Positions 34,631-50,403 of a stretch of DNA of 64,000 bases are shown here, piece after piece. Below the pieces are notes generated by a model. The model did no database searches. It saw only the letters and a list, made by a program, of their open reading frames with translations, and was not told where the DNA came from. The translations under genes and the position numbers were made by a program. Source of the DNA: Arthrobacter pigmenti. Its GTDB lineage: Bacteria > Actinomycetota > Actinomycetes > Actinomycetales > Micrococcaceae. Numbering within the stretch: the first letter of the stretch is position 1; each line of letters begins with the position of its first letter. The stretch spans positions 620,001-684,000 of the forward strand of contig NZ_JAATJL010000001.1 of NCBI RefSeq assembly GCF_011927905.1, read 5' to 3'.

Positions 34631-36311
34631 GATCAGTTTTCTGCCTCTCGGGATGGTGCTGGGATGGGACGGTGGTCTGTAGTTTGTTGAAGTAGTCGTG
34701 CCCGTAGATGCAAGTGCCTTCGAGCACGGTGGCCAGGACAGTTATTGAGCCGATCTCCTCGGCAGGGACGTCAGCCGGGTGGTCGGACAGCACAACGAAG
34801 TCGGCAAGTTTCCCGGTTTCCAGCGTTCCCCGCCGGTCTTCGTCGCCTGCCGTCCACGCAGTGTCGACCGTGTACGCGCGCAGGGCGGTCTCGGCGTCGA
34901 CCCTTTCCAGGGGCCCAATCGTCGCTCCGCCGGAGGTGCGTCGGGTCACCATCGACTGCATACCGAGCAAGGGCGCCCCGGATGCCACCGGCCGGTCGGA
35001 ACTGCCGGGGACCCGGACGCCGAGGTCAAGGAAGGACTTGTGGCGGTACACCCAAGGTTCGCGTTCGGTGCCGACGGCGTCGGCCATCGTGTCGCCCACC
35101 TCATAGAGGAAGTGGGGCTGTGGAACCGGCGTGACGTTCAGGGACGCGAATCGGGCAAGCTGGTCGGGACGCACTATGCCGGCGTGCTCGATCCGGTGCC
35201 TCGCGTGGGGTCGTGGGAGCAATTCCAGCGCGGCGGCAAACGCATCCAACGCGACGTCTATCGCCGAATCCCCGATTGCATGGGCCGCGATATCCCATCC
35301 CGAACAGTGGGCATCCACAATCCGCCGAGTGAGCTCCTCGAGGGAGAGCTGGAAGCTGCCTGTGCCGTGGTCATGGTCGCAGAATGGTTCGGTCACGGCA
35401 GCGGTGCGGCCGATGAGGGATCCGTCAATGAAAATCTTCATGGCACCGAGCCGGATGTGATCGTCACCGAATCCGGAAGCAATGCCGAGGTCCAGTCCGA
35501 AGGTGATTCCGTCTGACGGATGGGACTGCACAGGGTGCAGGGCATCGCTGGCCGCCATCAACTGGACCCGGGTCAACAGGCGGCCGCGGCGTCGGGCCTC
35601 TACATAGGCAGCAAATTCAACGGGAGTGCGGCCGATCCAGCCCGAGCCGATGCCCGCCTCCACAACGTGCGTCAGGCCCTCGGAGGCGTAGACCTCGCTC
35701 GCGGCGCCTATAGCGTCCGCCAAATCGTTCACCGGGTAGGGAACCACCAGTGCGGTGACCAGCTTCTGGGCTTGCTCCTCGAGCAGCCCTGTGGGTCCGT
35801 CTGAATCCTCAACGATCGTGCCACCTTCAGGAGTATTGGCTGATCCGTCCAGGACACCGGCTTGTTCAAGCACCCCGGTGTTGACGGTGCACATGTGGCC
35901 GGACCGGTGCTTGAGCCACACCGGGCGGCCGGGCGCTGCCCGGTCCAGGTCCTTGCGGTGGGGATGCCCGTCCATGACGGTGTCGTCATAACCCGATCCC
36001 ACTACCCACGCACCCTCGGGAAGGTTGAGGGCAAAGCCGGAGACGGCGTCGTACAGCTCGTCCAAAGTCCGGCAACCGGACAGGTCCAGCTCGGCCAGTG
36101 ACTGCCCAAACCACGCCATGTGATTGTGGGAATCACCAAAGCCGGGAACGACGACGGCGTCGGCGCAGTCGAGCGTGCGCCGTGCCGGAAGTGCCAGGAC
36201 GTCGTCATCGAACGCTACGATTCGCCCATGGAGCACCCCCATGGAGTGCGCTTTGGGAGCGGCATCCGCCATGGTGAAAATGCTGGCATTGACAAGTTTC
36301 AGATCGAGCAT
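34617..36311 (-). CDS. YtcJ-like metal-dependent amidohydrolase
   Basis: 564 residues. [12 protein letters not shown] is the first metal motif, followed by [42 protein letters not shown] and the late [13 protein letters not shown] (metal Asp) and [21 protein letters not shown] 36311 ([16 protein letters not shown]) begins the usual composite domain; the frame is open 37 residues further, but that part looks non-coding. It is first in the operon with the MHS permease and M20 deacylase and is divergent from the PucR regulator. Confidence 0.9.
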
Positions 36312-36435
36312 GGTCTTTGAAGGATGTCTTTCGGATAGAAGGCGCGGCCGCACGCAACGGCTCCTTCCATGGTGGCCTGCATCACGTCGGCAAACAATGG
36401 ATGAACACAGTGTGCTGCGCACCTACAATGGGCAT

Positions 36436-37635
36436 ATGCCCAACGATGCGGTTTCAGGTGGAGCCGGTGACCTTCGGAACCCGGTTTCCCGGCCTGTCAT
36501 AGCGGACGTTGTGACCGATTGCCTCGCCGATATAGACCGCATTGCTGACGAGTACCTGCAGGAAGTGCGGACGATTGACGGCTATGGCGGCGCCGCCGTC
36601 GTGGATCAGGATCTGCGGGAAACAGCTGTAGCGTCGATGGAACTGCTACTGCGCCTGATCGGTGACCTTCCCGTTCCCGAACGGCTGGCCGCAATGTCCG
36701 AAGCACTTGGACACCGCCGTGCACAGCAGGCCGTGCCCCTCGAATCGCTTCTGCGTGCAGTGCGCATGGACTTCCGCGTGCTCTGGACCGTGATGTTGGA
36801 GAAGGTTCCGGAAGGATCCCTGCCGGAACTCACGAAGGACGCGGTGCGGGTTTGGGAAGCGGTGGAGTTCCACACCATCCGGGCGCATGCGGGCTATCTC
36901 AACGAGCTGGCCAGCATGGCGCAGGAAAAGGAGACGCAGCGGGCGTTCCTGTTGTCACGGCTCGTCAGCTCGGACGGAAAGGACCCGCAGGTGCTGGGGC
37001 AGGCTGCCCGCGCACTCGGTGTGAAGCTGGAGAGCAGTTTCGTCGTTGCCGTTGCGGCTGTGGACGCTCAAAAGGCGTTCCGGGCCGAAGCGGTCCGCGC
37101 CGGTGTCGAGCAGTATCTGCACGAGCGCGACGGCGTGCTCATCCTCATTCTTGAGGACGTTCCCGCGCGGGCAGGGCGGAAACCGGAGGGGACGCGTCCC
37201 TGGCTTGCCCTGCTCGACTGCTTCGTGGCGCCCCCGGCCCAGTCATTGGCGGAGGTGCCGCTGATGCTCAGGATTGCGCTGGACTCGTTGCCGGTAGTGA
37301 CTGCCGGCCGGCCTGGCCGGCACACGGTGCGGGACACGTGGGGGCAGGTCGCCGCCACCCGGCTGGGGGAGTATGGAACCGTGTTGGCCAACACCGTGCT
37401 GGGGCCGCTTGCCGCGATTTCCACCCATGAGAGGGACCGGCTCATCGAGACTGTCCAGGCGTACCTTCGCTCCGGGTCGGTGTCTGAAACGGCGGGCGAG
37501 CTGTACTGCCACCGGAACACGGTGCTCAACCGGATCGCCCGGTTCGAACAGTTGACCGGCTTCGATCCAACCAATCCGCAGGACGCCGCTACTGTGCTCG
37601 CCGCTCTCCAGGTGCAGTTCCCGCCGGGACCATAA
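36436..37635 (+). CDS. PucR/CdaR-type transcriptional regulator
   Basis: 399 residues. The C-terminal PucR helix-turn-helix is clear ([43 protein letters not shown] is its span, about 335-380; [10 protein letters not shown] is the recognition part). The N-terminal half is helical and matches the RsbRD-like segment of these activators ([18 protein letters not shown]). PucR relatives control purine, allantoin and amino-acid conjugate breakdown. It is divergent from the amidohydrolase/MHS/deacylase operon, its likely target. Starts at 36436 or 36397 are both possible; neither has a strong ribosome site. Confidence 0.87.
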
Positions 37636-37668: not shown

Positions 37669-39003
37669 TCAGACCTGCTCGAGGAAGTCCTGCAGGATCC
37701 GCTGCCCGCTGCGCAGTGACTCCACGGGCACGCGCTCATCCACGCCGTGCACTCCGTCAGAGGTGCGGCCCTCCGGATCCGCGCCCTGCGGCGAGAACCC
37801 GTAGCAATCGATCCCCAGCGGCGCGAACGCCTTGGCGTCGGTTCCACCGCCCATGCAACGGGGAACGACGACGGCGGCAGGATCGTGGCGCAGCAGCGCC
37901 GCCTTCATCGCGTCGAACCAGTGCGAATCGACCGGCGCCTGGACCGGTGGCTGGTGGGACAGGAACGTCCGGGTCACCCGCCCGCCGAGCAGCCCGTCGA
38001 TCACGGCGAGGGTCTCCTCTTCGGTGCCCGGCAGGCACCGGACATCCAGGTCGGCGGACGCCGTCCCGGGGATGACGTTGACCTTGTAGCCGGCGTCGAG
38101 CACGGTGGGTGTGGCGGAGCAGCGGATGGTGGTGCGCGCCACGGTGCCGGCATCGCCCAGACGGTCCACCGCAGCTTCCACACCTGCGTCCGTGGTGAGG
38201 TCTGCGGGAAAGCCGAGAGCCGCCGTCGTCTGCTGCAGATACGCACGAACGGTGGGTGTCAGGACAATCGGCCAGGCATATTCGCTCACCCGGTGGAGCG
38301 CCCCAATCAGGTGAGTGACCGCGTTATCCGGGTTGGGACGTGAGCCGTGACCGGACGTTCCGGTGGCCGTCAGGCGCATGTGGAGTGTCCCGCGTTCCGC
38401 TGCCGCCACGGGATACAGGCGAACCTCGGAACCGTCCTCTGCCGTGAGGAACTGTGCAACGCCGCCCGATTCACCGATGGCGGCTTCGACGCCATCAAAC
38501 AGTTCCGGATGCTCGGCGGCAAGCCACAGCGCACCGTACTCACCCTTGTCCTCCTCATCCGCAACGAAGGCAACGACGACGTCGCGGCGCGGCCTCACGC
38601 CGTCTTCCGCCCAGCGCAGCAGCGTGGAAAAGGTCATGGCCACCATGTCCTTCATGTCGCTGGCGCCGCGGCCCCAAACGTAGCCGTCCCGAATTTCCCC
38701 GGCGAACGGGTCCAGGCTCCACTGCGCCGGTTCAGCCGGAACAACGTCGAGGTGGGCGTGGATCAGCAGCGCTGGAAGTGTGCGGTCGAGCCCCGGCACC
38801 CGCACCACTGTCGACGCGCGTTCAGGCGTGGGGCCGAGGATAACGGGCTCATACCCCGCGGACGTGAGCAGGCCGGCTAGGTATTCGGCCGCTTCCCGCT
38901 CTCCCTCGCTCTTTCCCTCACCCCAATTGGTGGTGTCGAAACGGATCAATTCAGCGCACAGGTCAACGGGGTCCACGACACGAGTGTAAGTGATTTGCGA
39001 CAC
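37669..39003 (-). CDS. M20-family peptidase/deacylase (dipeptidase-type)
   Basis: 444 residues. LLIHAHLDVVPAE (metal His, catalytic Asp), YVWGRGASDMKDMV (bridging Asp) and FVADEEDKGEYGA (catalytic Glu pair) are intact. It is a cytosolic M20 peptidase of the CPG2/DapE type. It is divergent from the binding-protein gene at 39064 with only 60 bases between, so the two are probably co-regulated and this enzyme would cleave imported peptides. GTG 39003 has no ribosome site; GTG 38976 is an alternative. Confidence 0.86.
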   Translation of the reverse strand: MSQITYTRVVDPVDLCAELIRFDTTNWGEGKSEGEREAAEYLAGLLTSAGYEPVILGPTPERASTVVRVPGLDRTLPALLIHAHLDVVPAEPAQWSLDPFAGEIRDGYVWGRGASDMKDMVAMTFSTLLRWAEDGVRPRRDVVVAFVADEEDKGEYGALWLAAEHPELFDGVEAAIGESGGVAQFLTAEDGSEVRLYPVAAAERGTLHMRLTATGTSGHGSRPNPDNAVTHLIGALHRVSEYAWPIVLTPTVRAYLQQTTAALGFPADLTTDAGVEAAVDRLGDAGTVARTTIRCSATPTVLDAGYKVNVIPGTASADLDVRCLPGTEEETLAVIDGLLGGRVTRTFLSHQPPVQAPVDSHWFDAMKAALLRHDPAAVVVPRCMGGGTDAKAFAPLGIDCYGFSPQGADPEGRTSDGVHGVDERVPVESLRSGQRILQDFLEQV

Positions 39004-39063
39004 ACAAAACAGTTGCGTAACTTAACTACATGGCGTTCTTCCGCCGGCATCAACGAAAGAGAC

Positions 39064-40926
39064 ATGATGACCAGTAACCGCACTTCCACTCGCCCCGGGG
39101 CGCGCAGAATCCCGCTCTTCCGCAAAATCGGAGCCTTATTGACCACGGCTGCCATCGGGCTGGTGCCCGGTGGCCTGGCACTTCCAGCCGCCTCCGCCGC
39201 TGAAACAGAAGCAGAGTCCGGGACAACCCTCAAGCTGCCCCTCACCGGGGACATTGACTCGCTGAACCCTTTCATCGCCATCCTCGCGACCAGCACCAAC
39301 ATCCTTGGACTGCAGTACGAGGGCCTGGTGGGCTACAGCGCCGAGAACAACGAGGTCATTCCTGAGATGGCGGAATCCTGGGAGACGTCCGAGGACGGCA
39401 TCACCTGGACCTACACCTTCGCGGAGGATCGCGTCTGGTCCGACGGTGAACCGCTGACCGCCAACGACGCCGCATGGACCTTCCAGGCGATCCAGGAGAA
39501 CGACACCCTCAAGCAGGCCAATGGTTCACTGCTTGAGAACGTGGTCTCCGTCGAGGCCGTCGATGATTACACCCTGGTGCTGACCCTGAATGAGGCGCAG
39601 GCACCCAACCCGGGTTCCGTCCTTCCGGTGGTCCCGGAACACATCTGGTCCGAAGTCGAGGATCCAGCGACCTTCGAGAACTCATCCGACGCCGTGGGCA
39701 GCGGACCGTTCACCGTAGTGGACTACAACCCGACCTCCGGCGTGACGATGAAGGCGAACCCCAACTACTGGCGGGGCGAGGCCAAGATCGACGGCGTCAC
39801 GTACGTTCCCTACCGTAACGGCGACGCCGCCGTGCAGGCATTGCTCACCGGCGAGATCGACATGATCAATGGGCTGACCCCGGCGCAGTTCCAGGCATTG
39901 GAATCGGAAGAGAACATCACCACCAATTCCGGTGCGGGCCGCCGCTACCAGGCCATGAACATCAACTCCGGCACCAAGGACATTGATGGAAACTACATGG
40001 GCAACGGCAATCCTGCGTTGCGGGATGTGGAACTTCGTAAAGCCATTGTGATGGCCATCGATTCCAATACCCTGCTGGAACGGGTCCTTGAGGGACTGGG
40101 AACACCGGCAACCGGTGAAATCCCAGCCGTCTACCCGCTGTACCACTGGGATACGGAGGAACTTCCCTACGCCTTCAACCCTGAGGAAGCCAACCGGATC
40201 CTCGATGAAGCAGGCTACGAAATGGGCGCCGACGGCGTGCGCCTTGACCTCGAAGGCAACCCGCTGGAGCTGCGCCTCATGGGCCGCAACTCGGACCCCA
40301 CGCACCAGCAGATGGCCGACTTCATCATCCCCTGGCTCGCGGACATCGGTATCTCAGTTACCAGCGAGATGAAGGCACCCGCACAGGTCAACGACGATTC
40401 GGTGCTCGGAAATTACGACATGTACTTCACCGGTTGGGGCATCGGCCCGGACCCGGACTTCCAGATGTCCATCAACCAGTGCTCGTCCCGCCCGAATGCC
40501 GATGGCACCGGCGCAACGAGCGAATCCAACTGGTGCTCGCCGGAGTTCGATGAAATCTACGCAGCCCAGCACACCGAACTGGACCAGGAACGCCGAAGCG
40601 AACTTGTCATCGAGGCACAGAAACTGATCTACGACGCCGCAGTGAACAACGTGCTGTACTACGCCGACGCCCTTGAGGCCTACCGCTCGGACCGCTTCGA
40701 ACCGTTCGTCACCCAGCCCGCTGAGGGCGGAGTAATCCTCGGACAGAATGGGCCGTGGGGAATCTATAGTGCAACTCCCGTTGCTTCGATTGAAGCTGAG
40801 GGCGCGGCCTCGACCACCAACCCTGCGGCCGTCATTCTGCCGATTGCGGGTGTGCTGCTCATCGGCGGACTGCTGGCGTTCTTCCTGATCAAGCGCAGGC
40901 GCTCCACCGCTGACGAGCGGGAGTAA
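39064..40926 (+). CDS. Peptide ABC transporter substrate-binding protein with C-terminal membrane anchor
   Basis: 620 residues. A Sec signal peptide (hydrophobic about 22-44, cleavage after ALPAASA) is followed by an SBP family 5 fold (DIDSLNPFIA, YTFAEDRVWSDGEPLTANDAAWTF, LLTGEIDMINGL). There is no lipobox Cys. Instead the C-terminus has a helix (about 590-611, VILPIAGVLLIGGLLAFFLI) followed by KRRR, a membrane anchor. Most importer binding proteins of Gram-positives are lipoproteins, so this is unusual. GAAAGAG precedes ATG 39064. It heads a long peptide-uptake operon. Confidence 0.9.
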   Translation: MMTSNRTSTRPGARRIPLFRKIGALLTTAAIGLVPGGLALPAASAAETEAESGTTLKLPLTGDIDSLNPFIAILATSTNILGLQYEGLVGYSAENNEVIPEMAESWETSEDGITWTYTFAEDRVWSDGEPLTANDAAWTFQAIQENDTLKQANGSLLENVVSVEAVDDYTLVLTLNEAQAPNPGSVLPVVPEHIWSEVEDPATFENSSDAVGSGPFTVVDYNPTSGVTMKANPNYWRGEAKIDGVTYVPYRNGDAAVQALLTGEIDMINGLTPAQFQALESEENITTNSGAGRRYQAMNINSGTKDIDGNYMGNGNPALRDVELRKAIVMAIDSNTLLERVLEGLGTPATGEIPAVYPLYHWDTEELPYAFNPEEANRILDEAGYEMGADGVRLDLEGNPLELRLMGRNSDPTHQQMADFIIPWLADIGISVTSEMKAPAQVNDDSVLGNYDMYFTGWGIGPDPDFQMSINQCSSRPNADGTGATSESNWCSPEFDEIYAAQHTELDQERRSELVIEAQKLIYDAAVNNVLYYADALEAYRSDRFEPFVTQPAEGGVILGQNGPWGIYSATPVASIEAEGAASTTNPAAVILPIAGVLLIGGLLAFFLIKRRRSTADERE

Positions 40927-40934
40927 CACCCGCC

Positions 40935-41975
40935 ATGTCGGATGCGTTGAGCACCCAGGATCTGGTCCCGGGAGACAACAGTACGGATGAGCCGCCGCGG
41001 GCATCCTCATGGTTGAAGTACATCGTCATGAAAGCCGGCGGGGCCTTGATCTCGCTGATCATGGTGGTACTGCTGGGTTTCTTCGCATTCCGCATCCTGC
41101 CCGGCGACCCCGTCCGCTCCCTCGCGGACGGGCGCCGGGTCAGTGTTGAGCAAATGGACATCCTGCGTGAGCAACTTGGCCTGAATGACCCGCTACTCGC
41201 ACAGTTCTGGCGGTATCTGACGGAACTGTTCCAGGGGCAGTTGGGGTACTCCTATACCTACAACGAGCCGGTGGTGAACCTCATCGCCACCCGGATCGGT
41301 CCCACAGTGCTTCTGACGGGGACCGCAGCGATCATCTCCGTGGTTCTTGGCCTCTGGCTGGGACAGCGGGCTGCCTGGCGCCGGGGGAGTCTCTTCGACC
41401 GGACGCAGACCGGACTTGCGCTGGTCTTCTGGTCGGTGCCGACATTCTGGCTGGGACTGCTTCTCCTCCTGTTCTTCGGTGGAGGACTGCAGTGGTTCCC
41501 CACCGGCGGTCTGGTCACCGCCGGCACCACAGAAACCGGCCTGCCGCTGATCTGGGACATCATCCGGCACATGACGCTTCCGGTCATCACCATGGTGGCG
41601 GTGGTGTACGCCCAGTACCTGATGGTGATGCGGGCGTCGCTGCTGGAAGAAATGACCTCGGATTACCTGATGACGGCGCGTGCCAAGGGCCTGCGTGAGG
41701 ACGAAGTCCGCACCAAACACGCAGTGCCCAACGCGCTCCTGCCCACAGTCACCCTGATCTTCCTCACTCTCGGCGGGCTGGTTGGCGGCGCAGTCACCGT
41801 GGAGACCGTGTTCTCCTGGCCCGGGCTCGGCTATCTCACCTTCCAGGCACTCTCAGCCCCTGACTTCCCGCTGCTGCAAGGAACCTTTGTGGTCTTTTCC
41901 TCGATCGTGATCCTGATGAATTTCTTCGCGGACCTGCTCTACCGCGTCCTTGACCCCAGGCTGCGTGCCGCATGA
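40935..41975 (+). CDS. Peptide ABC transporter permease (DppB-like)
   Basis: 346 residues, six helices. The first helix ends in FRILPGDPVRSLADGRR, the DppB motif, and the EAA loop is DYLMTARAKGLREDEVRTKH. A soluble N-terminal tail of about 30 residues precedes helix 1. It starts 8 bases after the binding-protein stop and overlaps the next permease by ATGA. Confidence 0.92.
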   Translation: MSDALSTQDLVPGDNSTDEPPRASSWLKYIVMKAGGALISLIMVVLLGFFAFRILPGDPVRSLADGRRVSVEQMDILREQLGLNDPLLAQFWRYLTELFQGQLGYSYTYNEPVVNLIATRIGPTVLLTGTAAIISVVLGLWLGQRAAWRRGSLFDRTQTGLALVFWSVPTFWLGLLLLLFFGGGLQWFPTGGLVTAGTTETGLPLIWDIIRHMTLPVITMVAVVYAQYLMVMRASLLEEMTSDYLMTARAKGLREDEVRTKHAVPNALLPTVTLIFLTLGGLVGGAVTVETVFSWPGLGYLTFQALSAPDFPLLQGTFVVFSSIVILMNFFADLLYRVLDPRLRAA

Positions 41976-42880
41976 GCGCCCCCGCAGCCCAGGGCAAACG
42001 CATCAACGTCGCTGCCGCGCGCCGTCGTCAGCGTGCAGTGGAGGTCTGGAAGGAATTTGCTTCAAACCGTGCGGGCCTCACCGGACTGATCATCCTGATC
42101 TTTGTGATTGCGCTGGCCGCCCTGATCCCGTTGTTTGCTCCGCCCAGCGTTCTCGATGTCACGCAGGTGACCTCACCGCAGAACGATCCCCCCAGCCTCG
42201 AGAATCCGCTGGGCACCGATCCGGCCGGGCGGTCAGTACTTGCCCTGCTGATCTGGGGAGCCCGGATCTCCCTGGTGGTGGGCTTCGCCGCAACACTGGT
42301 CTCCATGGTGATCGGCACCGTGGTGGGCATGGCCGCGGGTCACTTCACCGGAGTCACCCAAGCGGTCCTGATGCGCATCATCGACTTCTTCCTCGTGGTC
42401 CCGGGACTTGTGCTGGCGATTGTGCTCTCCAGCGTGATCGGCCCGGGCGTGGCAACCATCGTCGTCGCAATCGGCGTGACCTCGTGGGCCGGCACGGCCA
42501 GGCTGGTGCGTTCGCAGACACTCACAGTGGAGTCCCGCCCCTATATTGAACGGGCCTGGGCACTGGGTGCCGGGGACGGCCATGTCATCACCAAGCACGT
42601 GCTGCCCGCCGTCATGCCGCTGGTGCTTGCCAACACCACGCTGACCGTAGGCTCGGCCATCATCGCCGAATCCACGCTGTCCTTCCTGGGTCTGGGCGAT
42701 CCCAGCAGCATCTCCTGGGGCGCCATGCTCAAATCTGCCCTGGACACCGGAGCAGCCACCGGAGGGTACTGGTGGTACGTGATGCCGCCCGGCATTGCGA
42801 TTGTTGTGGTGGTGCTTTGCTTCACCCTGGTGGGCCGCGCCCTCGAGTCCGTCATCAATCCCACCCTGCGAGGACGTTAA
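41972..42880 (+). CDS. Peptide ABC transporter permease (DppC-like)
   Basis: 302 residues. Helix 1 (about 34-56) is followed by the DppC-type lead NPLGTDPAGRSVLALLIWGARISL; the EAA loop (PYIERAWALGAGDGHVITKH) and STLSFLGLGDPSS complete the pattern. The basic N-terminus RRRQR precedes helix 1. Its stop overlaps the next ATG (TAATG). Confidence 0.92.
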   Translation: MSAPAAQGKRINVAAARRRQRAVEVWKEFASNRAGLTGLIILIFVIALAALIPLFAPPSVLDVTQVTSPQNDPPSLENPLGTDPAGRSVLALLIWGARISLVVGFAATLVSMVIGTVVGMAAGHFTGVTQAVLMRIIDFFLVVPGLVLAIVLSSVIGPGVATIVVAIGVTSWAGTARLVRSQTLTVESRPYIERAWALGAGDGHVITKHVLPAVMPLVLANTTLTVGSAIIAESTLSFLGLGDPSSISWGAMLKSALDTGAATGGYWWYVMPPGIAIVVVVLCFTLVGRALESVINPTLRGR

Positions 42881-44613
42881 TGCTGCGGCTTGAGTTCCAG
42901 GATGTCAGGATCACCTACACCACGCAGACCGCAAGCGGGCGGGGTGAAATCGCAGCGGTCGACGGCGTCAGCCTCGTTGTTGAGCCCGGCTCCACTGTGG
43001 GCCTCGCCGGTGAATCCGGCTGCGGCAAATCCACCCTCGCGGTTTCTGTCCTTCGACTGCTGCCCGCAAACGCAAAAGTCGAGGGAAAGATCCTGCTCGG
43101 CGATGAGAGCGTTTCCGACCTGACCTGGGGCCGCCTGAGGTCCGTGCGCTGGACGGAGGCCTCCATCGTGTTCCAGGGCGCCATGCACTCGCTGAACCCG
43201 GTGCGCAAGGTCCGCGACCAGATCGCCGAAGCGCTGATCATCCACGCGAAGGGAGCGGACGCGAAGTACAAGCAGGAATCCGCCCGGATTACGCGGGTCA
43301 ATGAGCTCCTGCAGCAGGTGGGACTTCCGCGGGCGAAGGGGTTGTCCTATCCGCATGAGCTTTCCGGCGGGCAGAAGCAGCGCATCATGATTGCCATGGC
43401 GCTGGCCTGCGAGCCGGACCTGATCATTGCGGACGAGCCGACGACGGCCCTGGACGTCGTCGTACAGGCGCAGGTCCTTGATCTGCTCACCGCGCTGGTC
43501 CGCGACCGTGGCTTGTCGCTGATCATGATTAGCCATGACCTCTCGGTCCTGGCGGCCACCTGCGAGCGCATTGTCGTGATGCAGGACGGCAGAATCGTGG
43601 AGCAGGGACCGTCGCTTGAGATTATGCGCAATCCCCAGCATCCGCACACCCAGGCGCTGGCTTCCGCGTTTCCCGTGATCGGCGACCTTTCTTCACGGCT
43701 GAAGCTCCCTACCTACACCGCCCCGAATGCCCCGCATGCGGAACCGGCCGAGCGCCAGGCTGCGGCCCATCAAGGCCGTCCTGCCTTGGAAGCCCGCAAT
43801 CTGTCGGTGACGTTCAACGGGCGCGGTTCCGGCGCGGTCAAGGCAGTGGATTCGGTCAACCTGACGTGCAATACCGGTGAGATCGTGGCGCTGGTGGGGC
43901 AATCGGGCTCGGGCAAAACTACCCTGGCACGGACACTGCTTGGCCTGCAGAAACCCACGGGCGGTGAAGTCCTCTTCGAAGGCACGGCGCTGTCCCATCA
44001 GCGCAAAGCACTCAAGGCTTACCGCAGGGCGGTGCAGTTTGTACTCCAGGATCCAACGGCTGCGCTGAATCCCAAGCATTCGGTCTATGAGGCAGTCGCT
44101 GAAGGGCCACGGTTGCACAAGCTCGACGGCGATGAGCGGGACATCGTTGCCGCGGCTTTGGCCAAGGCGGAGCTGAACCCGCCGGAGAAGTATTTCACTG
44201 CGATCCCGCAGGAGCTCTCCGGGGGCCAGCGCCAGCGGGTTGTGATTGCCGGTGCGCTCGCCCTTGACCCGGAATTCCTGGTTGCGGACGAACCGGTAGC
44301 GAGCCTGGACGCCTCTGTCCGTGCCGGCGTCCTGGCCCTGCTGCTGAAGCTGAAGTGCGAGCTCGGCCTCGGAGCGCTCGTCATTACCCATGACCTGGGC
44401 CTTGCGTGGAACATCGCCGACCGTGTGGTGGTGATGTACCAGGGGCGCATCGTGGAGGAAGGGCCGGTGGAGGAGGTGCTGCTCAATCCCCAGCACGAGT
44501 ACACACGGCGGTTGCTCAGCGTGGTCCCCACCCGTGAATCGCCTGTCGCGACCAGCAGCGTCCCGCTGAAGGAACAGCCACTCGAGGACGAGGTTCAGGA
44601 CGGCGTGCGTTGA
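42880..44613 (+). CDS. Peptide ABC transporter, fused DppD-DppF ATPase
   Basis: 577 residues with two ATPase domains. Domain 1 has GESGCGKST, LSGGQKQRI and IADEPTTALD; domain 2 has GQSGSGKTT, LSGGQRQRV and VADEPVASLD. It has the oligopeptide tails HPHTQALASAFP and HEYTRRLLSVVP. ATG 42880 shares bases with the previous TAA; the frame is open further upstream inside the permease gene but this is not coding. It completes the importer and overlaps the start region of the LD-carboxypeptidase gene. Confidence 0.93.
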   Translation: MLRLEFQDVRITYTTQTASGRGEIAAVDGVSLVVEPGSTVGLAGESGCGKSTLAVSVLRLLPANAKVEGKILLGDESVSDLTWGRLRSVRWTEASIVFQGAMHSLNPVRKVRDQIAEALIIHAKGADAKYKQESARITRVNELLQQVGLPRAKGLSYPHELSGGQKQRIMIAMALACEPDLIIADEPTTALDVVVQAQVLDLLTALVRDRGLSLIMISHDLSVLAATCERIVVMQDGRIVEQGPSLEIMRNPQHPHTQALASAFPVIGDLSSRLKLPTYTAPNAPHAEPAERQAAAHQGRPALEARNLSVTFNGRGSGAVKAVDSVNLTCNTGEIVALVGQSGSGKTTLARTLLGLQKPTGGEVLFEGTALSHQRKALKAYRRAVQFVLQDPTAALNPKHSVYEAVAEGPRLHKLDGDERDIVAAALAKAELNPPEKYFTAIPQELSGGQRQRVVIAGALALDPEFLVADEPVASLDASVRAGVLALLLKLKCELGLGALVITHDLGLAWNIADRVVVMYQGRIVEEGPVEEVLLNPQHEYTRRLLSVVPTRESPVATSSVPLKEQPLEDEVQDGVR

Positions 44614-44624
44614 GGGAGAACCCG

Positions 44625-45545
44625 TTGAGGGAGACTGGAGCCCACCCGGAGCTTGGACCGTTGAAGGCGGGGGACCGCGTTGGCCTGGTGGCGCCGTCGG
44701 GCCCTGCCCCCGCTGACCGGTTGGACCGGGCAGTGTCCCTGCTCAGCGGCTGGGGGCTGGAACCGGTGCTAGGAGACCATGTCCGCGACGTAAACCCCCG
44801 CGCGCCTTATCTGGCGGGGGAAGACCGGCACCGTGCCGAAGACCTGCAGAACATGTGGTGCGACGATCACATCGACGCGGTCTTCTGCATCCGCGGCGGA
44901 TACGGCTCAGTCCGGATCCTGGACCTCCTGGATGCCGGCAAACTGCGCGCAGCCCGACAAAAGCCTCTGATTGGTTCCTCAGATGCAACGGCGCTGCACG
45001 AGTACTGGGCAGATAACCTCCAGCTCGCCACCTGGTTCACCCCGATGGTAGCCACCGACGCTCTGCTGGAGGACCCGGCGGCGCAGACAAAGCTCAAGGA
45101 AGCGCTGTTCACGCCGTACGCCGGACGCAGCTATACCGCGAGCGCCGCCGAATCATTGGTGGAAGGCAAGGCAACCGGCATACTTACCGGGGGTAACCTC
45201 AGTCTCCTGGCAATGACACTTGGAGCTAAACCCGTCCCGGATAACACCGGCCGGATCGCGTTGCTCGAGGACATCACCGAGGATATCTACCGCTTGGACG
45301 CACTCCTGCATACACTGCTGCGCGCCGGCTGGTTCGAGGGATTGACGGGGATCGCCCTCGGCTCGTGGCTCAAGTGCGGTGAGCTGCACGAGGTCAAGGC
45401 ACTCGTCACCGAACTGCTGGTGCCGCTCGGGATCCCGCTGGTGTGGGAGCTCGGCTTCGGTCACGGTCCCGGTGCCCACAGCATTCCTCTCGGTGTCCAC
45501 GCAACCCTTACCGCGGATGGGAATCCACACCTTGTCCTCACCTGA
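44625..45545 (+). CDS. LD-carboxypeptidase (S66, LdcA/MccF family)
   Basis: 306 residues. The N-terminal VGLVAPSGPA strand, RGGYGSVRILDLLD, the nucleophile motif IGSSDATAL (Ser about 119), GGNLSLLAMTLG and the C-terminal HGPGAHSIPLGV (His) are all S66 features, so the Ser-Glu-His triad looks complete. LdcA cleaves the L-D bond of tetrapeptides (mDAP or Lys to D-Ala) from cell-wall turnover in the cytosol. TTG 44625 has AGGGAG 5-6 bases upstream; TTG 44610, on the ATPase stop, is the alternative. It supports a murein-peptide role for the importer. Confidence 0.88.
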   Translation: MRETGAHPELGPLKAGDRVGLVAPSGPAPADRLDRAVSLLSGWGLEPVLGDHVRDVNPRAPYLAGEDRHRAEDLQNMWCDDHIDAVFCIRGGYGSVRILDLLDAGKLRAARQKPLIGSSDATALHEYWADNLQLATWFTPMVATDALLEDPAAQTKLKEALFTPYAGRSYTASAAESLVEGKATGILTGGNLSLLAMTLGAKPVPDNTGRIALLEDITEDIYRLDALLHTLLRAGWFEGLTGIALGSWLKCGELHEVKALVTELLVPLGIPLVWELGFGHGPGAHSIPLGVHATLTADGNPHLVLT

Positions 45546-46665
45546 AATCGACGCCGACCTCCGGCGTATCGTCGAAACCGCCGTGCATAGCCGGGTAACG
45601 CCGTCGGCCGTTCTGGCGTACAGCGTGCGGGGCACACAGGCGGGCCCGGCCGCCTTTGGCGATGCGGTGGCGTACGACGACGACGCCGCGCCCCTGCCCG
45701 CAGGCCAGCGGGTGCCCGCTACGACCGACACCGTCTATGACCTCGCCTCGGTCACCAAGATTTTCACTGCAGTGACCGCGTTGCGCCTGGTCGACGACGG
45801 CGTCCTGGCCCTCGACGAGCCAGTCCGACAAGTGCTTCCAGGCTTCACGGGGGAGGGCAAGGCCCTGGTCACCCTCCGCCACCTGCTCACCCATACCTCA
45901 GGCCTGCCCGGGGTCTGGGAGGGCTGGCAGCGGATGCCCTCCGCGGGTCGCGGCGACTTACTGGAGGACCTGCTGGCCACACCGCTGGCAGCGCCCGCGG
46001 GCACCGCCTTCAACTATTCCTGCGTGGGTTTCAACACCGTGCTGGCGCTCGCCGAAACAGCTGCCGGAACGTCGTGGGCGGACCTGGTGGACAGGATCGT
46101 TCTTCAGCGGCTCCGCGCACTGGATGCGAGAACGGCGACACTGACCTACTCCCCGGACGCGGCCGCCTGCGCCGCGACCGAGTGCCAGCCGGAACTCGGC
46201 AGGGGAGCCGTCCGAGGCGTGGTCCATGACGAAAGCGCCTGCGCCCTCGGTGGGAGCGCCGGAAACGCCGGTCTCTTCGGTACTGCGGAGGGCCTGTTGG
46301 CGTTCGGGGAAATACTGCGCACCGATACGGCGTCGCTGCTCTCAGATCCGCTGGCACAGGAATTCTGGTCGGACCAGCTCCCGTGGGTACTTGGGGACAA
46401 CCTTGAGCAGGGTGGCCCCGGGTACGGCCATGGACTCGGACTGAGGATTGGTCAGCTGGACTGGATGGGGAGTTCCGGCATCAGCGCGCGCGGGCATAAC
46501 GGCTTCACCGGGACCTCGCTTCTGGTGGACCGCGACGCCTCATTGACTGTGGTCCTGCTGACCAACCGGGTCCATCCCAGCCGCACTCTCTCCGAGATGG
46601 CTCCGCTGCGCTCCGCCGTCGCGGACACCGTCTATGCCGCGGCAGCAGTTGGGGCAGAGGCATGA
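45517..46665 (+). CDS. Beta-lactamase-fold serine hydrolase (class C/AmpH-EstB type), no signal peptide
   Basis: 382 residues. The SxxK motif is SVTK (S78-K81 in YDLASVTKIF), the Tyr region is FNYSCVGFN, and the third motif region is GHNGFTGTS, as in the serine hydrolase family PF00144. These enzymes act as DD-peptidases, D-aminopeptidases or esterases. No signal peptide or membrane helix is seen, so it is cytosolic, unlike most of the family. ATG 45517 overlaps the LdcA gene by 29 bases. Confidence 0.83.
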   Translation: MGIHTLSSPEIDADLRRIVETAVHSRVTPSAVLAYSVRGTQAGPAAFGDAVAYDDDAAPLPAGQRVPATTDTVYDLASVTKIFTAVTALRLVDDGVLALDEPVRQVLPGFTGEGKALVTLRHLLTHTSGLPGVWEGWQRMPSAGRGDLLEDLLATPLAAPAGTAFNYSCVGFNTVLALAETAAGTSWADLVDRIVLQRLRALDARTATLTYSPDAAACAATECQPELGRGAVRGVVHDESACALGGSAGNAGLFGTAEGLLAFGEILRTDTASLLSDPLAQEFWSDQLPWVLGDNLEQGGPGYGHGLGLRIGQLDWMGSSGISARGHNGFTGTSLLVDRDASLTVVLLTNRVHPSRTLSEMAPLRSAVADTVYAAAAVGAEA

Positions 46666-47462
46666 GCGTCACTTCGGACTACAGCGACGGCGTCCCGCAC
46701 ATCTCATTTCACCTCACCACCCTCGGCGGGAAGACCTTGGCCGAACGGGAGGCAGACACGGTTGTGTATGCGGCAAGCACCATCAAGCTCGCGGTGCTCG
46801 TAGCTGCGCTGCGGGAGGTCGACGCCGGGAGGCTCTCCCTGGACCAGCCGGTCACCGTCAGGATCAGCTTCCCCAGCGCCGCGCCCGGTGCCGGTACTTT
46901 CACCTGCGAACCCGGTGAAATAGACGAGGGACTCCCGGCTGTTGGCAGGAACATGCCGCTGCGGGAGGTCCTCGGGCGCATGATCACCGTGTCCTCCAAT
47001 GAAGCCACCAACATGGCGGTGGATCTGGTCGGTTTGCCGTCAGTCAACACTGCCCTTGAGGTATGCGGGGCGGCTTCCTCGAAGATGGAACGGCTTTTCG
47101 GGGACCTTGCCGGGCTCGAGGCTGGTCTCACCCAGGAAACTACCGCTACGGACCTGGCCACCATCGTGTGCGCGATTGTCTCCGGGCGGGCAGCCGGACC
47201 GGAAAGCACCCGGCTGATGCTGGAATTCCTGCGCGCCCAGGAGTACGGAATCATCGGGCCGGTCCTTCCGGCCGGCGCGGACTGGGGGAGCAAATCGGGC
47301 TGGGTGACAGGCATCCGGCATGATGTGGCCTTCGTCCGGCCCGACGGCAGTGATGACGGCTACGTCCTCGCCGTGTGCACCCGCGCTTGTGAGGAAGAGA
47401 GCGCGACGGCGGCAATCACCGCGCTCTCCACGATGGCCTGGGATCTGTGGGAAGCGAGATGA
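46662..47462 (+). CDS. Class A beta-lactamase-like serine hydrolase, cytosolic
   Basis: 266 residues. STIK (S39-K42) is the catalytic SxxK, ITVSSNEATNM is the SDN-type motif (here SSN), and SKSGWVTG is the KTG-type box (here KSG). This is the class A beta-lactamase/PBP-like fold. It has no signal peptide, so its substrate must be inside the cell, consistent with imported muropeptides rather than antibiotic defence. The deacylation Glu of true class A enzymes is not obvious. ATGA overlap on both sides. Confidence 0.82.
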   Translation: MSVTSDYSDGVPHISFHLTTLGGKTLAEREADTVVYAASTIKLAVLVAALREVDAGRLSLDQPVTVRISFPSAAPGAGTFTCEPGEIDEGLPAVGRNMPLREVLGRMITVSSNEATNMAVDLVGLPSVNTALEVCGAASSKMERLFGDLAGLEAGLTQETTATDLATIVCAIVSGRAAGPESTRLMLEFLRAQEYGIIGPVLPAGADWGSKSGWVTGIRHDVAFVRPDGSDDGYVLAVCTRACEEESATAAITALSTMAWDLWEAR

Positions 47463-48280
47463 CCGCAAACCATCAGCAGGTCCGAACCATCAGTTTCGAT
47501 CTGGACGGAACGCTGATTCAGGGCCCGTTTGCCGGAGTGCTGCGGGAGGTGTGCAGCGCAATTGCGGGACCCTCCGCAGACGAGCTGTACCTGGATGTGC
47601 TGCGCCGCCACGAAGAGCTCCTGCTGGTGGACGAATATGCTGCGTACGGCTGGTCCTCGATGGTTGCAGCCGTGGCGCGCACGCTGGGGTTCGAGAGGAA
47701 CGAGCAGGCCATCACAGCGCGCATTGTCCAGCGGCTGGAGGAAGTGCCGGAACGTACCCGCCTGCTCCACCCCGAGACTGCCGCGGTGCTTGACAGTCTG
47801 CGGGCGGCGGGCTGGCGGGTTCTCATCCTCACCAACGGGCGCAGGGCTTTCCAGGAACCGGTCATTGCCGGTGCGGGTCTGCTGCCGGTAATCGACGGCA
47901 TCGTCACGTCCGACGACGCCGGTTCGGCCAAGCCGGGAAGAGCAGTGTTCAAATTTGCCAGGGGTACAGCGGACCTGCACATCCATGTGGGTGACAGGTT
48001 GGACCATGATGTTGCAGGGTCCGCCCGAAGCGGAGCCCTGAGCATGTTGCTGCGGAAGGACGCACCGGTTTCAGGAGTGGTTCAACGGTTCGACGACGCG
48101 AAGCGTAGTGCGTTGCTTGAGTACCTCTGGGTTCGGCATGCGGCCGAACGGCGCATCGACCCTCCAGCGCAACGAGGCGACCTTCCGCCGGAGCTGGTGC
48201 CGGACGCCGTCGCTCCTGACCTGGAGGCGGTAGCCCAGCTGGTGGGCGCACTTGTTGCTCAGCGGACCGCTGTTTCCTGA
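47459..48280 (+). CDS. HAD-superfamily hydrolase
   Basis: 277 residues. Motif I FDLDGT (D14, D16), motif II VLILTNGR, motif III Lys in SAKPGRAVFKFA and motif IV VGDRLDHDVAGS are present, so phosphatase activity is likely. The cap region is about 30-110. HAD enzymes dephosphorylate sugar phosphates or nucleotides. In this context a MupP-like amino-sugar phosphatase is conceivable, but no residue proves it. The 3' end overlaps by 22 bases the convergent epimerase gene. Confidence 0.83.
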   Translation: MTANHQQVRTISFDLDGTLIQGPFAGVLREVCSAIAGPSADELYLDVLRRHEELLLVDEYAAYGWSSMVAAVARTLGFERNEQAITARIVQRLEEVPERTRLLHPETAAVLDSLRAAGWRVLILTNGRRAFQEPVIAGAGLLPVIDGIVTSDDAGSAKPGRAVFKFARGTADLHIHVGDRLDHDVAGSARSGALSMLLRKDAPVSGVVQRFDDAKRSALLEYLWVRHAAERRIDPPAQRGDLPPELVPDAVAPDLEAVAQLVGALVAQRTAVS

Positions 48281-49389
48281 CCGACGGGTGCCGCGGAGAT
48301 CCCCAATCCGGGTGCGTCGGGTAGTTCGATCACGTTCGCTTCATACCTGGCACCGCCGGCTACCGGCGATGAGCCCACCCACAGGCCACCGTCCAGATCC
48401 TGTGGCGCTGTGCCAGCCGCCGTCGAGGGCTCTCCGTTTCCGGACAGCGACGCGGCGAAACTCGCCGCTGCGCTGATGCCCACGGTGCTCTCGATCATGC
48501 AGCCAACCAGCATGCCAAGGCCAGCGCTCGAGGCCAGCCGCGCCAGCTGAGTGGCTACGAAGATTCCTCCGGATTTGGCCAGCTTGATGTTCACCAGGTC
48601 CGCAGCCTGCAGGTCGATGAGTTTGTGGAGGTCATCGACGGTCCACACTGACTCATCCGCCATGATCGGAATGCCCACGCGGCGGGTGACATAGGCGAGA
48701 TCCTCCAGGGAATCGGAGCGCACCGGCTGCTCGATCACTTCGATGCCAAGGTCCGCGTCTTCCAGGGTGGTGATGATCCGCACCGCGTCTTCGGCGGTGA
48801 AGGCCTGGTTGGCGTCCACCCTTAGCCGGACCTGTGGGCCGGCAGCCTCCCGCACTGCGCGCATCCGCGCTAACGGGTCGCCATTGGCATCCAGTTTGAC
48901 CTTGATGCAGTCGAATCCGCCGGTGACGTGTTGGTTGGTTGCACGGGACAACGTCGCAGGATTGCCCACGGAGAGCGTCATATCGGTTGAAATCCGTGCA
49001 GAGCGGCCGCCAAGGTAGCGGTAGAGCGGCATCCCTGCCCGCTGCGCCGCCAGGTCATGGAGCGCACAGTCCACCGCCATCCTCGCGGCTCCGGATTCGG
49101 AAGAAAGGCTAAGGAGCCTCAAGGCCTCCGCATGGTCAGCCGTGTCTGAATGCGCCACAAGGTCCTGAAGCGGGCCGTGCACAGCTCTCATCACCCCGGC
49201 AGTGGTTGCTTTGGTGACTGCGCTGATGGGGGCCTCGCCCCAGCCGATGCGGCCGTCGTCGTCGGTGGCTTGAACCAAAACCGTTTCCAGTACCGTGGCG
49301 CGTCTGACGGCGGTGACAAAAGGCCTGACCAGCGGCACCGTGGTGGGCTGGGCGCGAAGGGTAACCGCGGGAGTCGATGGTCGCGTCAC
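48259..49389 (-). CDS. Dipeptide epimerase, L-Ala-D/L-Glu epimerase-like (enolase superfamily)
   Basis: 376 residues. Catalytic KxK is IKVKLD (K163, K165); metal ligands are in LRVDANQAF, IEVIEQPV and IMADESVW; a second Lys is in VNIKLAKSGG. This is the AEE pattern of the MLE subgroup. It would convert L-Ala-D-Glu from murein peptides to L-Ala-L-Glu, which ordinary peptidases can then cut. It starts at GTG 49389 with AGGTGA 8 bases upstream, next to the RpiR gene and a palindrome, and is divergent from the regulator. Confidence 0.86.
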   Translation of the reverse strand: MTRPSTPAVTLRAQPTTVPLVRPFVTAVRRATVLETVLVQATDDDGRIGWGEAPISAVTKATTAGVMRAVHGPLQDLVAHSDTADHAEALRLLSLSSESGAARMAVDCALHDLAAQRAGMPLYRYLGGRSARISTDMTLSVGNPATLSRATNQHVTGGFDCIKVKLDANGDPLARMRAVREAAGPQVRLRVDANQAFTAEDAVRIITTLEDADLGIEVIEQPVRSDSLEDLAYVTRRVGIPIMADESVWTVDDLHKLIDLQAADLVNIKLAKSGGIFVATQLARLASSAGLGMLVGCMIESTVGISAAASFAASLSGNGEPSTAAGTAPQDLDGGLWVGSSPVAGGARYEANVIELPDAPGLGISAAPVGQETAVR

Positions 49390-49399
49390 AGCGGGTCAC

Positions 49400-49415
49400 C
49401 TTTCTACGTAGAAAG
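49400..49415. promoter_or_regulatory. Perfect 16-base palindrome between epimerase and RpiR regulator
   Basis: CTTTCTACGTAGAAAG is self-complementary over its full length. It lies 11 bases upstream of the epimerase start and 125 bases before the RpiR gene, a natural operator for that regulator. Confidence 0.6.
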
Positions 49416-49539
49416 ACTACGATACCTATCAATAAGTTGTAGCTTAATGACGCGACCGGCAGTGCTTGACCCAGATTCGCTCAGTGAGCCGCGACAGCCA
49501 CACTGCCGCACAGGAAGACGCCGCCCGAGAAAGGGTTTC

Positions 49540-50403
49540 ATGAGCATCCAGTCGAAGATCCATTCCCACCTGCCGACACTGGCCCCCGCCGCGCGGAGGG
49601 TTGCGGAAGTGATGTTGGCTGATCCCACGGTGGTCCTGCGAAACACCATTTCGCAGCTCGCCGAAAAATGCAGCACCTCCGAGCCATCGGTGGTGCGGTT
49701 CTGCCGGGCTCTTGGGTATGCGGGCTATAGCGAACTCCGCCTGGTGATGGCAACCGAGCTGGGACGGGAGCAAGCCGCTGTGGCAGATCAGCGCCGCTTC
49801 GGTTCGGACATCAGCCCGGAGGATTCCCTGCAGGACACCGTCGCGAAGATTGCGTACGCGGAGACGCTTGGTATCGATGAAACCCTCTCCAGCATTGACT
49901 TCGACGTGCTGGCGGAGGTGGTGCAGACCATCGGCTCCGCACGGCACATCCTCGTCTACGGACTGGGCGCGGGCGCTATTGTCGCCGATGACCTTCAACA
50001 CAAACTGTTCCGGATCCAACGCACGGCCCAGGCCTTCAACCAGCATCATGACGCCCTCATGGGTGCCGCGCTCATGGACCCCACCGATGTGGCGATCGCC
50101 TTCTCCCACAGTGGCCAGACCGGCGAGACCCTTGCGTTCATCGAGCGGGCCAAGGAAGCCGGGGCACCCACCATCGCGGTGACCAACGTCGAGTCCTCGC
50201 CGCTCGCAAAGACCGCGGACCTCTGCTTGTTCACGATGGTGCGCGAGACCGCTTTCCGTTCAGGTGCCATGGCGTCGAGGATCGCCCAGCTTGCCATGGT
50301 TGACTGCATCTTCGCCGGTGTGGCACAGAGCAGCTACGAGAAGACTGTCAGCGCTTTGGAAGTGACCAGCGCAGCCGTCAGCTACGGCACTCGCACCCGG
50401 TGA
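49540..50403 (+). CDS. MurR/RpiR-family transcriptional regulator
   Basis: 287 residues. The N-terminal HTH_6 domain (about 1-80: ARRVAEVMLADPTVVL...STSEPSVVRFCRALGYAGY) is followed by a SIS domain (about 120-260: GSARHILVYGLGAGAIVADDL, IAFSHSGQTGETLAFIERA). RpiR proteins bind phosphosugars; the MurR branch senses MurNAc-6-phosphate. Its position beside the epimerase and murein-peptide genes suggests control of this island. ATG 49540 has GAAAGGG 6 bases upstream; the longer open frame from 49150 overlaps the epimerase and is not coding. Confidence 0.9.
   Translation: MSIQSKIHSHLPTLAPAARRVAEVMLADPTVVLRNTISQLAEKCSTSEPSVVRFCRALGYAGYSELRLVMATELGREQAAVADQRRFGSDISPEDSLQDTVAKIAYAETLGIDETLSSIDFDVLAEVVQTIGSARHILVYGLGAGAIVADDLQHKLFRIQRTAQAFNQHHDALMGAALMDPTDVAIAFSHSGQTGETLAFIERAKEAGAPTIAVTNVESSPLAKTADLCLFTMVRETAFRSGAMASRIAQLAMVDCIFAGVAQSSYEKTVSALEVTSAAVSYGTRTR

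Follow-up and report, generated by a model that had tools for sequence, protein, structure and literature searches.

The Arthrobacter pigmenti genome is a single contig of 3.79 Mb, and the window considered here (the whole stretch analysed, 64,000 nucleotides of that contig) carries at positions 37669–50403 a gene cluster that we read, with good though not complete confidence, as a regulated catabolic island for the stem peptides of the cell wall. The gene set, its synteny, the catalytic residues and a pair of promoter palindromes were obtained by computation, and from these we infer every enzymatic activity, the role of an M20 peptidase and the ligand of the regulator. The island is real and conserved, and is probably a regulated, murein-peptide catabolic variant of the ykf/dpp route, in which an enzyme set partly different from those known in Bacillus and E. 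coli appears to be used. Its most interesting aspects are a missing endopeptidase, two cytosolic hydrolases of penicillin-binding protein (PBP) fold and an operator link to MurQ/NagZ in relatives. The original prediction had placed these genes side by side; all are present with the families proposed. With the two operators predicted here, the layout is:

37669–39003, minus strand: M20 metallopeptidase, PRK07906 subfamily (NCBIfam PRK07906 above cut-off)
39016–39030, no strand: predicted RpiR operator CGTAACTTAACTACA, between the M20 and peptide-binding protein genes
39067–40926, plus strand: family-5 peptide-binding protein (SBP_bac_5); by eye, Sec-type start and C-terminal membrane anchor
40935–41975, plus strand: Opp/Dpp-type permease B
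41972–42880, plus strand: Opp/Dpp-type permease C
42880–44613, plus strand: fused two-domain importer ATPase, DppD-DppF type
44610–45545, plus strand: S66 LD-carboxypeptidase (both Pfam S66 domains over cut-off; triad S124, E220, H285)
45517–46665, plus strand: S12 serine hydrolase, AmiE/PBP4B type, PF00144 (no export signal seen)
46662–47462, plus strand: ClsA, class-A-fold serine hydrolase, PF13354 (no export signal seen)
47459–48280, plus strand: HAD-type phosphatase, accessory
48259–49389, minus strand: L-Ala-D/L-Glu-type dipeptide epimerase, enolase superfamily
49407–49421, no strand: predicted RpiR operator CGTAGAAAGACTACG, between the epimerase and RpiR genes
49540–50403, plus strand: RpiR-family regulator (HTH_6 and SIS)

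That observation is thus confirmed, with the correction that the M20 and epimerase genes lie on the opposite strand, from which divergent promoters face the binding-protein gene (M20) and the RpiR gene (epimerase). The interpretation placed on it is partly supported; import of murein peptides and their cytosolic breakdown find support in the synteny, the catalytic residues and the neighbouring genes. From the binding protein to the HAD phosphatase the genes run head to tail with an 8-nt gap or overlaps of 1–29 nt, and so apparently form one transcript; the likely starts are 45517 rather than 45379 for S12 and 49540 rather than 49150 for RpiR. The ATP-binding cassette (ABC) importer is complete (39067–44613), consisting of the SBP_bac_5 protein, two permeases and one fused double ATPase. 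The binding protein combines its Sec-type start with a C-terminal anchor ending RRR...(D/E)xR(E/Q/A) and has no lipobox, and the same C-terminus is found on the binding proteins of all 13 island relatives compared, the start of one (L028) being incompletely seen. Export signals, in the window and in relatives, were judged by eye rather than by a signal-peptide program.

The cluster recurs as a unit elsewhere. ClsA was detected in eight of the 149 genomes, and six of the 32 genera, of a family sample, at 14 loci in a scan of named genomes and, at E 1e-30, in at least five of the 396 genomes of a phylum sample, the scoring there having been limited to six candidates per genome. After merging a duplicate (L014 = L024) there are 21 distinct ClsA loci including the window, of which 14 hold a contiguous importer–S66–ClsA core and a fifteenth (L018) is cut by a contig end, which makes 15 syntenic loci. 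An M20 orthologue, 59–94% identical and divergent from the binding-protein gene, is present in all 13 full-core islands of relatives; S12 is absent from four of the 15 island loci (L025 and three Leucobacter islands). Six ClsA loci fall outside this set. At L010, ClsA overlaps an M20 gene and a distant importer (24–38% identical) lies more than 7 kb away; L029 is taken up below; the neighbours at L016 and L023 are uninformative; and at L022 (7360–10816) and L014 (9303–13663) ClsA lies near an amino-acid-type ABC importer and an amidohydrolase (Amidohydro_3, D-aminoacylase-like in appearance, 79% identical between the two loci). These last two loci would suit a general scavenging of peptides containing D-amino acids (nonribosomal peptides, lipopeptides or mixed debris), with murein as one source, as would the S12 fold family, which includes D-stereospecific and DL-peptidases and from which 9sn1 ('Lip3 DL-peptidase') and 9s7k ('dHy1') are among the matches of the island protein. 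We nevertheless consider such a role improbable, given an S66 that is LdcA-like, an epimerase that retains the L-Ala-D-Glu determinants, and the GH25, C39, MurQ and NagZ-like genes at the island in relatives.

The closest match of the epimerase in the PDB is YkfB, the L-Ala-D/L-Glu epimerase of B. subtilis (227 bits), and its two catalytic lysines, three metal ligands, dipeptide-binding arginine and DxD motif are all kept: R29, K165 and K269 correspond to R24, K162 and K268 of YkfB, D192/E220/D245 to its metal ligands and D331-L-D333 to D321/D323. The YkfB structure is our basis for the roles of its metal ligands, of R24 and of D321/D323. For K162 and K268 a catalytic role is described (PMC5808125). 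Among the islands of relatives, the L019 epimerase has DLV in place of DLD, and the called start of the L012 epimerase leaves out the arginine region. More distant epimerase-like proteins occur in other actinobacterial lineages (L072, L073); the L072 copy adjoins DUF1611, presumably a DgcN-type partner, and that lineage is thus probably of different function. In yet another actinobacterial lineage (L069, 6563–9251), an S12 protein with DUF3471 directly adjoins an epimerase-like gene.

The S66 protein has both S66 domains and a Ser–Glu–His triad of the LdcA type, with Ser124, Glu220 and His285 invariant across 12 island copies (12 alignment rows), and scores below the NCBIfam equivalog cut-off for muramoyltetrapeptide carboxypeptidase (113.7 against 378 bits). 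As the S66 family includes MccF and both serine hydrolases have beta-lactamase folds, the cluster could be a detoxification or immunity locus, the S66 being an MccF-like immunity protein and the hydrolases conferring resistance to beta-lactams or peptide antibiotics. This is very hard to sustain: the nearest S66 relative is P. aeruginosa PA5198, which we take to be LdcA, at 96 bits, against 64 for the best chain named MccF-like and at most 50 for chains named MccF; ClsA has no ExxLN motif, neither hydrolase shows an export signal to the eye, and such a locus would leave the epimerase and importer without a task.

The two hydrolases were originally predicted to lack signal peptides, and by eye neither N-terminus has a hydrophobic segment. 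S12, with motif places SVTK, YSC and GHNG, finds its best curated model in PBP4B (68 bits against a cut-off of 385) and is 38% identical to an AmiE-like protein encoded at L043 in the same genome, itself 184 bits to PBP4B, with which it has the blocks VHDExAW, GHxGFTGTS-like and LLTNRVHP in common. Best model and motif blocks together assign S12, as far as sequence can indicate, to the AmiE/PBP4B clade. The L043 protein starts, by eye, like an exported protein and lies in a NamZ–GH3 neighbourhood, and S12, which has no such secretion signal, therefore looks like an AmiE-type relative without the export signal. At L022 a 34% identical S12 homologue adjoins an AnmK gene. The predicted S12 model (mean predicted local distance difference test score, pLDDT, 88) comes about as close to an acyltransferase as to esterases, the R61 DD-peptidase or a recent 'DL-peptidase', so that structure leaves its substrate undecided. 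The ClsA model (mean pLDDT 95) has 4ewf and PBP-A (2j7v) among its best fold matches, and its motifs are S39xxK42, S111/S112-N113 and K211-S-G213. Class A beta-lactamases carry an omega-loop glutamate in an ExxLN motif; between SSN and KSG this was found in none of 20 ClsA rows, and ClsA would accordingly be misplaced, on its predicted motifs, among those enzymes. Most of the curated NCBIfam models listed for S12 and ClsA are named beta-lactamase, and an assignment of either protein as such was rejected, all listed generic matches being far below their cut-offs.

Regulation is suggested by a palindrome, YGTAR-N5-YTACR, of which the window has only two copies, at 39016 and 49407, that is, at both divergent island promoters (shuffling the window gave a mean of 0.11 over 100 shuffles, one of which reached 2). 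This shared element lends support to the earlier proposal that the island has its own regulator. The CGTAACTTAACTACA operator is also found in L017, with counterparts in L012, L013, L019, L020 and L021, and a scan of the window and 38 other loci (730 kb in total, with some overlap) returned 16 matches, 14 of them distinct, all between divergent binding-protein/M20, epimerase/RpiR or MurQ/RpiR genes. The presence of the palindrome at the island's divergent promoters and its recurrence at murQ/rpiR in relatives is a new observation, and the palindromes are predicted to be the RpiR operators of the island promoters. Their layout equals that of the site TGTAATTAAATTACA of HexR, another RpiR-family protein (PMC11906056). 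In a tree the window RpiR groups with island and MurQ/NagZ-adjacent RpiRs with support of 84/93, which is not strong, and it reaches 127 of 408 bits against the curated MurR model. The RpiR fold, a murQ-linked orthologue and a palindrome at the promoter are found for the orthologue group; in the window itself no murQ adjoins RpiR. The idea that the palindrome marks a murQ regulon in A. pigmenti was discarded, since neither L041, where its murQ lies, nor L043, with the NamZ trio, has a site.

In two relatives (G026 and G129) the island continues past M20 with a second S12 gene (closest to the AmpH model, though under its cut-off), MurQ (359 bits to TIGR00274 in G026 and 357 in G129, above the cut-off of 302), an RpiR gene 58–60% identical to that of the window, and a NagZ-like GH3 gene (155 bits against 207 in G026; the G129 copy 60% identical). 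Both also encode a GH25 muramidase and a C39-like peptidase, exported by eye, between the epimerase and another RpiR. In L012 (5637–8284) and L013 (5835–8432) the GH25 and C39-like pair separates a second RpiR gene from the epimerase, or lies next to the latter. After ClsA, the three Leucobacter islands (L027, L028, L030) have a DAO-type oxidoreductase gene, Pfam-assigned in L028 and 73–75% identical in the other two, and in L028 this is followed by lysA.

Such neighbours matter for the cargo. The original prediction had argued from the absence of MurQ and NagZ that sugar-free peptides are imported; both do lie outside the island, and the conclusion drawn from this is weak. Elsewhere in the genome, AnmK, RpiR, MurQ and an FAD-linked oxidase form one run (G000:C1:3715660–3719892; L041 7661–11893), there are two NagZ-like GH3 genes, both under the NagZ cut-off, and NamZ, the AmiE-like protein and a GH3 protein are encoded in a row, all with exported-type starts (G000:C1:2988962–2994183; L043 3963–9184), both Pfam domains of NamZ being found; this trio is of the namZ–amiE–nagZ type known from B. 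subtilis. We take B. subtilis ybbC to be the gene later named namZ. With these genes present, an argument from what is missing in the island is not strong, and it is weakened further by the two relatives whose islands have MurQ and a NagZ-like gene next to them, together with an RpiR orthologue and the same palindrome. The cluster could then be a full muropeptide island, importing MurNAc-peptides (MurNAc, N-acetylmuramic acid) from which the cytosolic AmiE-like S12 splits off the sugar, MurNAc passing to AnmK/MurQ. That S12 resembles the AmiE-like member of the L043 trio fits this, as does the distribution of MurQ: present in 32 of the 149 family genomes, it occurs in seven of the eight with ClsA against 25 of the 141 without (Fisher p 8e-5, kinship not corrected for), and among the eight same-genus genomes listed only A. 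pigmenti has either MurQ or ClsA. In a second set of 13 genomes (the named loci and G007), MurQ was found in seven, five over the cut-off, and in none of the genomes of L018 (a metagenome-assembled genome), L026, L027, L028, L030 and G007. The two sets together give MurQ in ten of 15 island genomes and no match in four with a full core, so that the sugar arm is optional. A full muropeptide island is somewhat unlikely in our view, since S12 is lacking from the four islands named above, the Leucobacter and 11W110_air islands have no MurQ, a secreted AmiE would already release peptides outside the cell, and Opp-type importers usually carry peptides. Peptide would remain the common cargo of the islands, with sugar-bearing cargo admissible and not needed.

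For a stem-peptide route one step stands out. The bond between gamma-D-Glu and the diamino acid is cut by YkfC in Bacillus and by MpaA in E. coli (PMC2954226). The A. pigmenti genome gave no match to M14 (MpaA-type) enzymes, and no YkfC was recognised in the island or among the genome's five NlpC/P60 places, of which four (L047, within L041, L049, L050 and L051) look exported by eye and the fifth (L048) has no signal, but is without the SH3-like part. A YkfC query from L068 found L029 (127 bits) and L075 (58 bits); its other matches, L041/L047 and L048 among them, were to the NlpC part alone. At L068 (6551–10721), L029 (9962–14700) and L075 (1–2721), in three lineages outside the island, ClsA is grouped with an epimerase and either a YkfC-type or an NlpC/P60 gene, L075 being the weakest case and the Pfam check covering L068. 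ClsA as the replacement for YkfC was demoted on these grounds. M20 had no match in the fetched stretches of these three loci (only 6 kb for L075), and the full-core island loci have M20, with no YkfC found in the fetched flanks. Against two models of the DapE/ArgE type, whose enzymes remove an acyl group from an amino acid, M20 reaches more than 120 bits. This distribution and these scores favour M20 for the gamma-D-Glu step, and make it a candidate gamma-D-Glu–diamino acid hydrolase or L-Ala-L-Glu dipeptidase. It is a tentative suggestion, possible rather than probable, that some Micrococcales have a third, independently assembled stem-peptide route, in which M20 replaces YkfC/MpaA, two PBP-fold hydrolases have become cytosolic catabolic peptidases, and, in some of these bacteria, one RpiR operator system links peptide breakdown with MurQ/NagZ sugar recycling.

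In the mechanism we favour, the membrane-tethered binding protein and Opp-type ABC importer would take up free stem peptides, and perhaps small MurNAc-peptides. The cytosolic S66 would remove D-Ala from the diamino acid and the two PBP-fold hydrolases would trim or free the peptide, S12 perhaps as an AmiE-like MurNAc-L-Ala amidase or a D-residue peptidase, and ClsA as a PBP-A-like peptidase without the beta-lactamase glutamate. M20 would most likely then cleave gamma-D-Glu–diamino acid and/or L-Ala-L-Glu, and the epimerase would convert L-Ala-D-Glu to L-Ala-L-Glu. Through palindromes of the type TGTAA-N5-TTACA, RpiR would control the M20 gene, the importer operon, the epimerase gene and its own expression, in response to a ligand that is probably a MurNAc-derived sugar phosphate.

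Several points weigh against this reading. The palindrome pattern was chosen after looking at these promoters, so its count in the window is not an independent test, and recurrence across loci is the better evidence. At least one exact copy is present in only eight of the 15 island loci, none being found in L011, L015, L025, L026, L027, L028 and L030. Genome-wide it occurs at nine sites, seven of them off-island and near chance by the window shuffles (the reversed control pattern has 48 places), and no wall gene was recognised adjoining these seven, open reading frame starts being read by eye. The epimerase's top NCBIfam score is to DgcA and below cut-off (183.6 against 400 bits; A_G_epim_Thtga, 164 against 500, is likewise below its equivalog cut-off). 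No epimerase lies nearby in five of the 15 island loci, two of whose genomes have only weak enolase-superfamily matches, the other three having candidates elsewhere (one of 245 bits, two of 139). Among fetched loci the HAD gene is conserved only in L017. At L028 (3476–9047, Leucobacter coleopterorum) the coding of the binding protein, permease C and ATPase is in each case broken across two or more reading frames, so that this copy may be damaged or badly read. The mutual exclusion of M20 and YkfC is drawn from three YkfC/NlpC loci and the fetched flanks only, and the position of ClsA beside a YkfC/NlpC-type gene in three lineages makes ClsA probably not the YkfC replacement.

A role of the HAD protein as phosphatase for MurNAc 6-phosphate was dropped, its best matches being generic HAD models and the gene being present only here and in L017. 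Adjoining the island in the window (33305–37635) are a major facilitator superfamily (MFS) transporter, a YtcJ-like amidohydrolase and a PucR-type regulator; L019 instead has a YtcJ-like gene at the RpiR end of its island. An MFS transporter 34% identical to that of the window (33305–34630) adjoins the AnmK–MurQ run of L041.

To our knowledge, wall-peptide recycling in Actinobacteria seems little mapped. What the island offers is a compact gene set of patchy distribution, for which operators are predicted, one missing step is identified and candidates for that step are proposed. It also suggests that cytosolic enzymes of penicillin-binding fold serve wall-peptide breakdown which, if true, matters for beta-lactamase annotation. 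The combination with two such hydrolases had been thought undescribed, and no such cluster was met in searches of a partial open-access full-text collection, as judged by titles and the openings of abstracts.

Of the systems described, dpp-ykfABCD of B. subtilis is similar in keeping an LD-carboxypeptidase, an L-Ala-D/L-Glu epimerase and the Dpp importer together (PMC2954226). The island has the importer, S66 and epimerase expected of that type and differs in having no YkfC, and in its additional M20, two cytosolic PBP-fold hydrolases, HAD protein, and RpiR with predicted operators. With the YcjG–MpaA pathway of E. coli it has in common the epimerase step and cytosolic peptide breakdown (PMC2954226), whereas the A. 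pigmenti genome has no M14 endopeptidase and the cluster brings its own importer. In B. subtilis, amiE, nagZ and ybbC lie together in a murQRP-amiE-nagZ-ybbC cluster, which resembles the island in an AmiE-like S12 and an RpiR/MurR regulator (PMC5061867); as outlined there, that cluster handles sugar, by means of extracellular enzymes and a phosphotransferase system, whereas the island would handle peptides, which an ABC importer brings in and cytosolic enzymes break down. Agrobacterium YejBEF–YepA likewise performs ABC-type import of cell-wall pieces, but in a Gram-negative organism and of muropeptides, and its abstract mentions no linked catabolic island (PMC9790009). ClsA, finally, is like PBP-A (2j7v) and 4ewf in fold (template modelling scores of about 0.75–0.81), and is set apart from them by an identity of only 25–28%, the lack of a visible export signal and its membership of a peptide-catabolic cluster.

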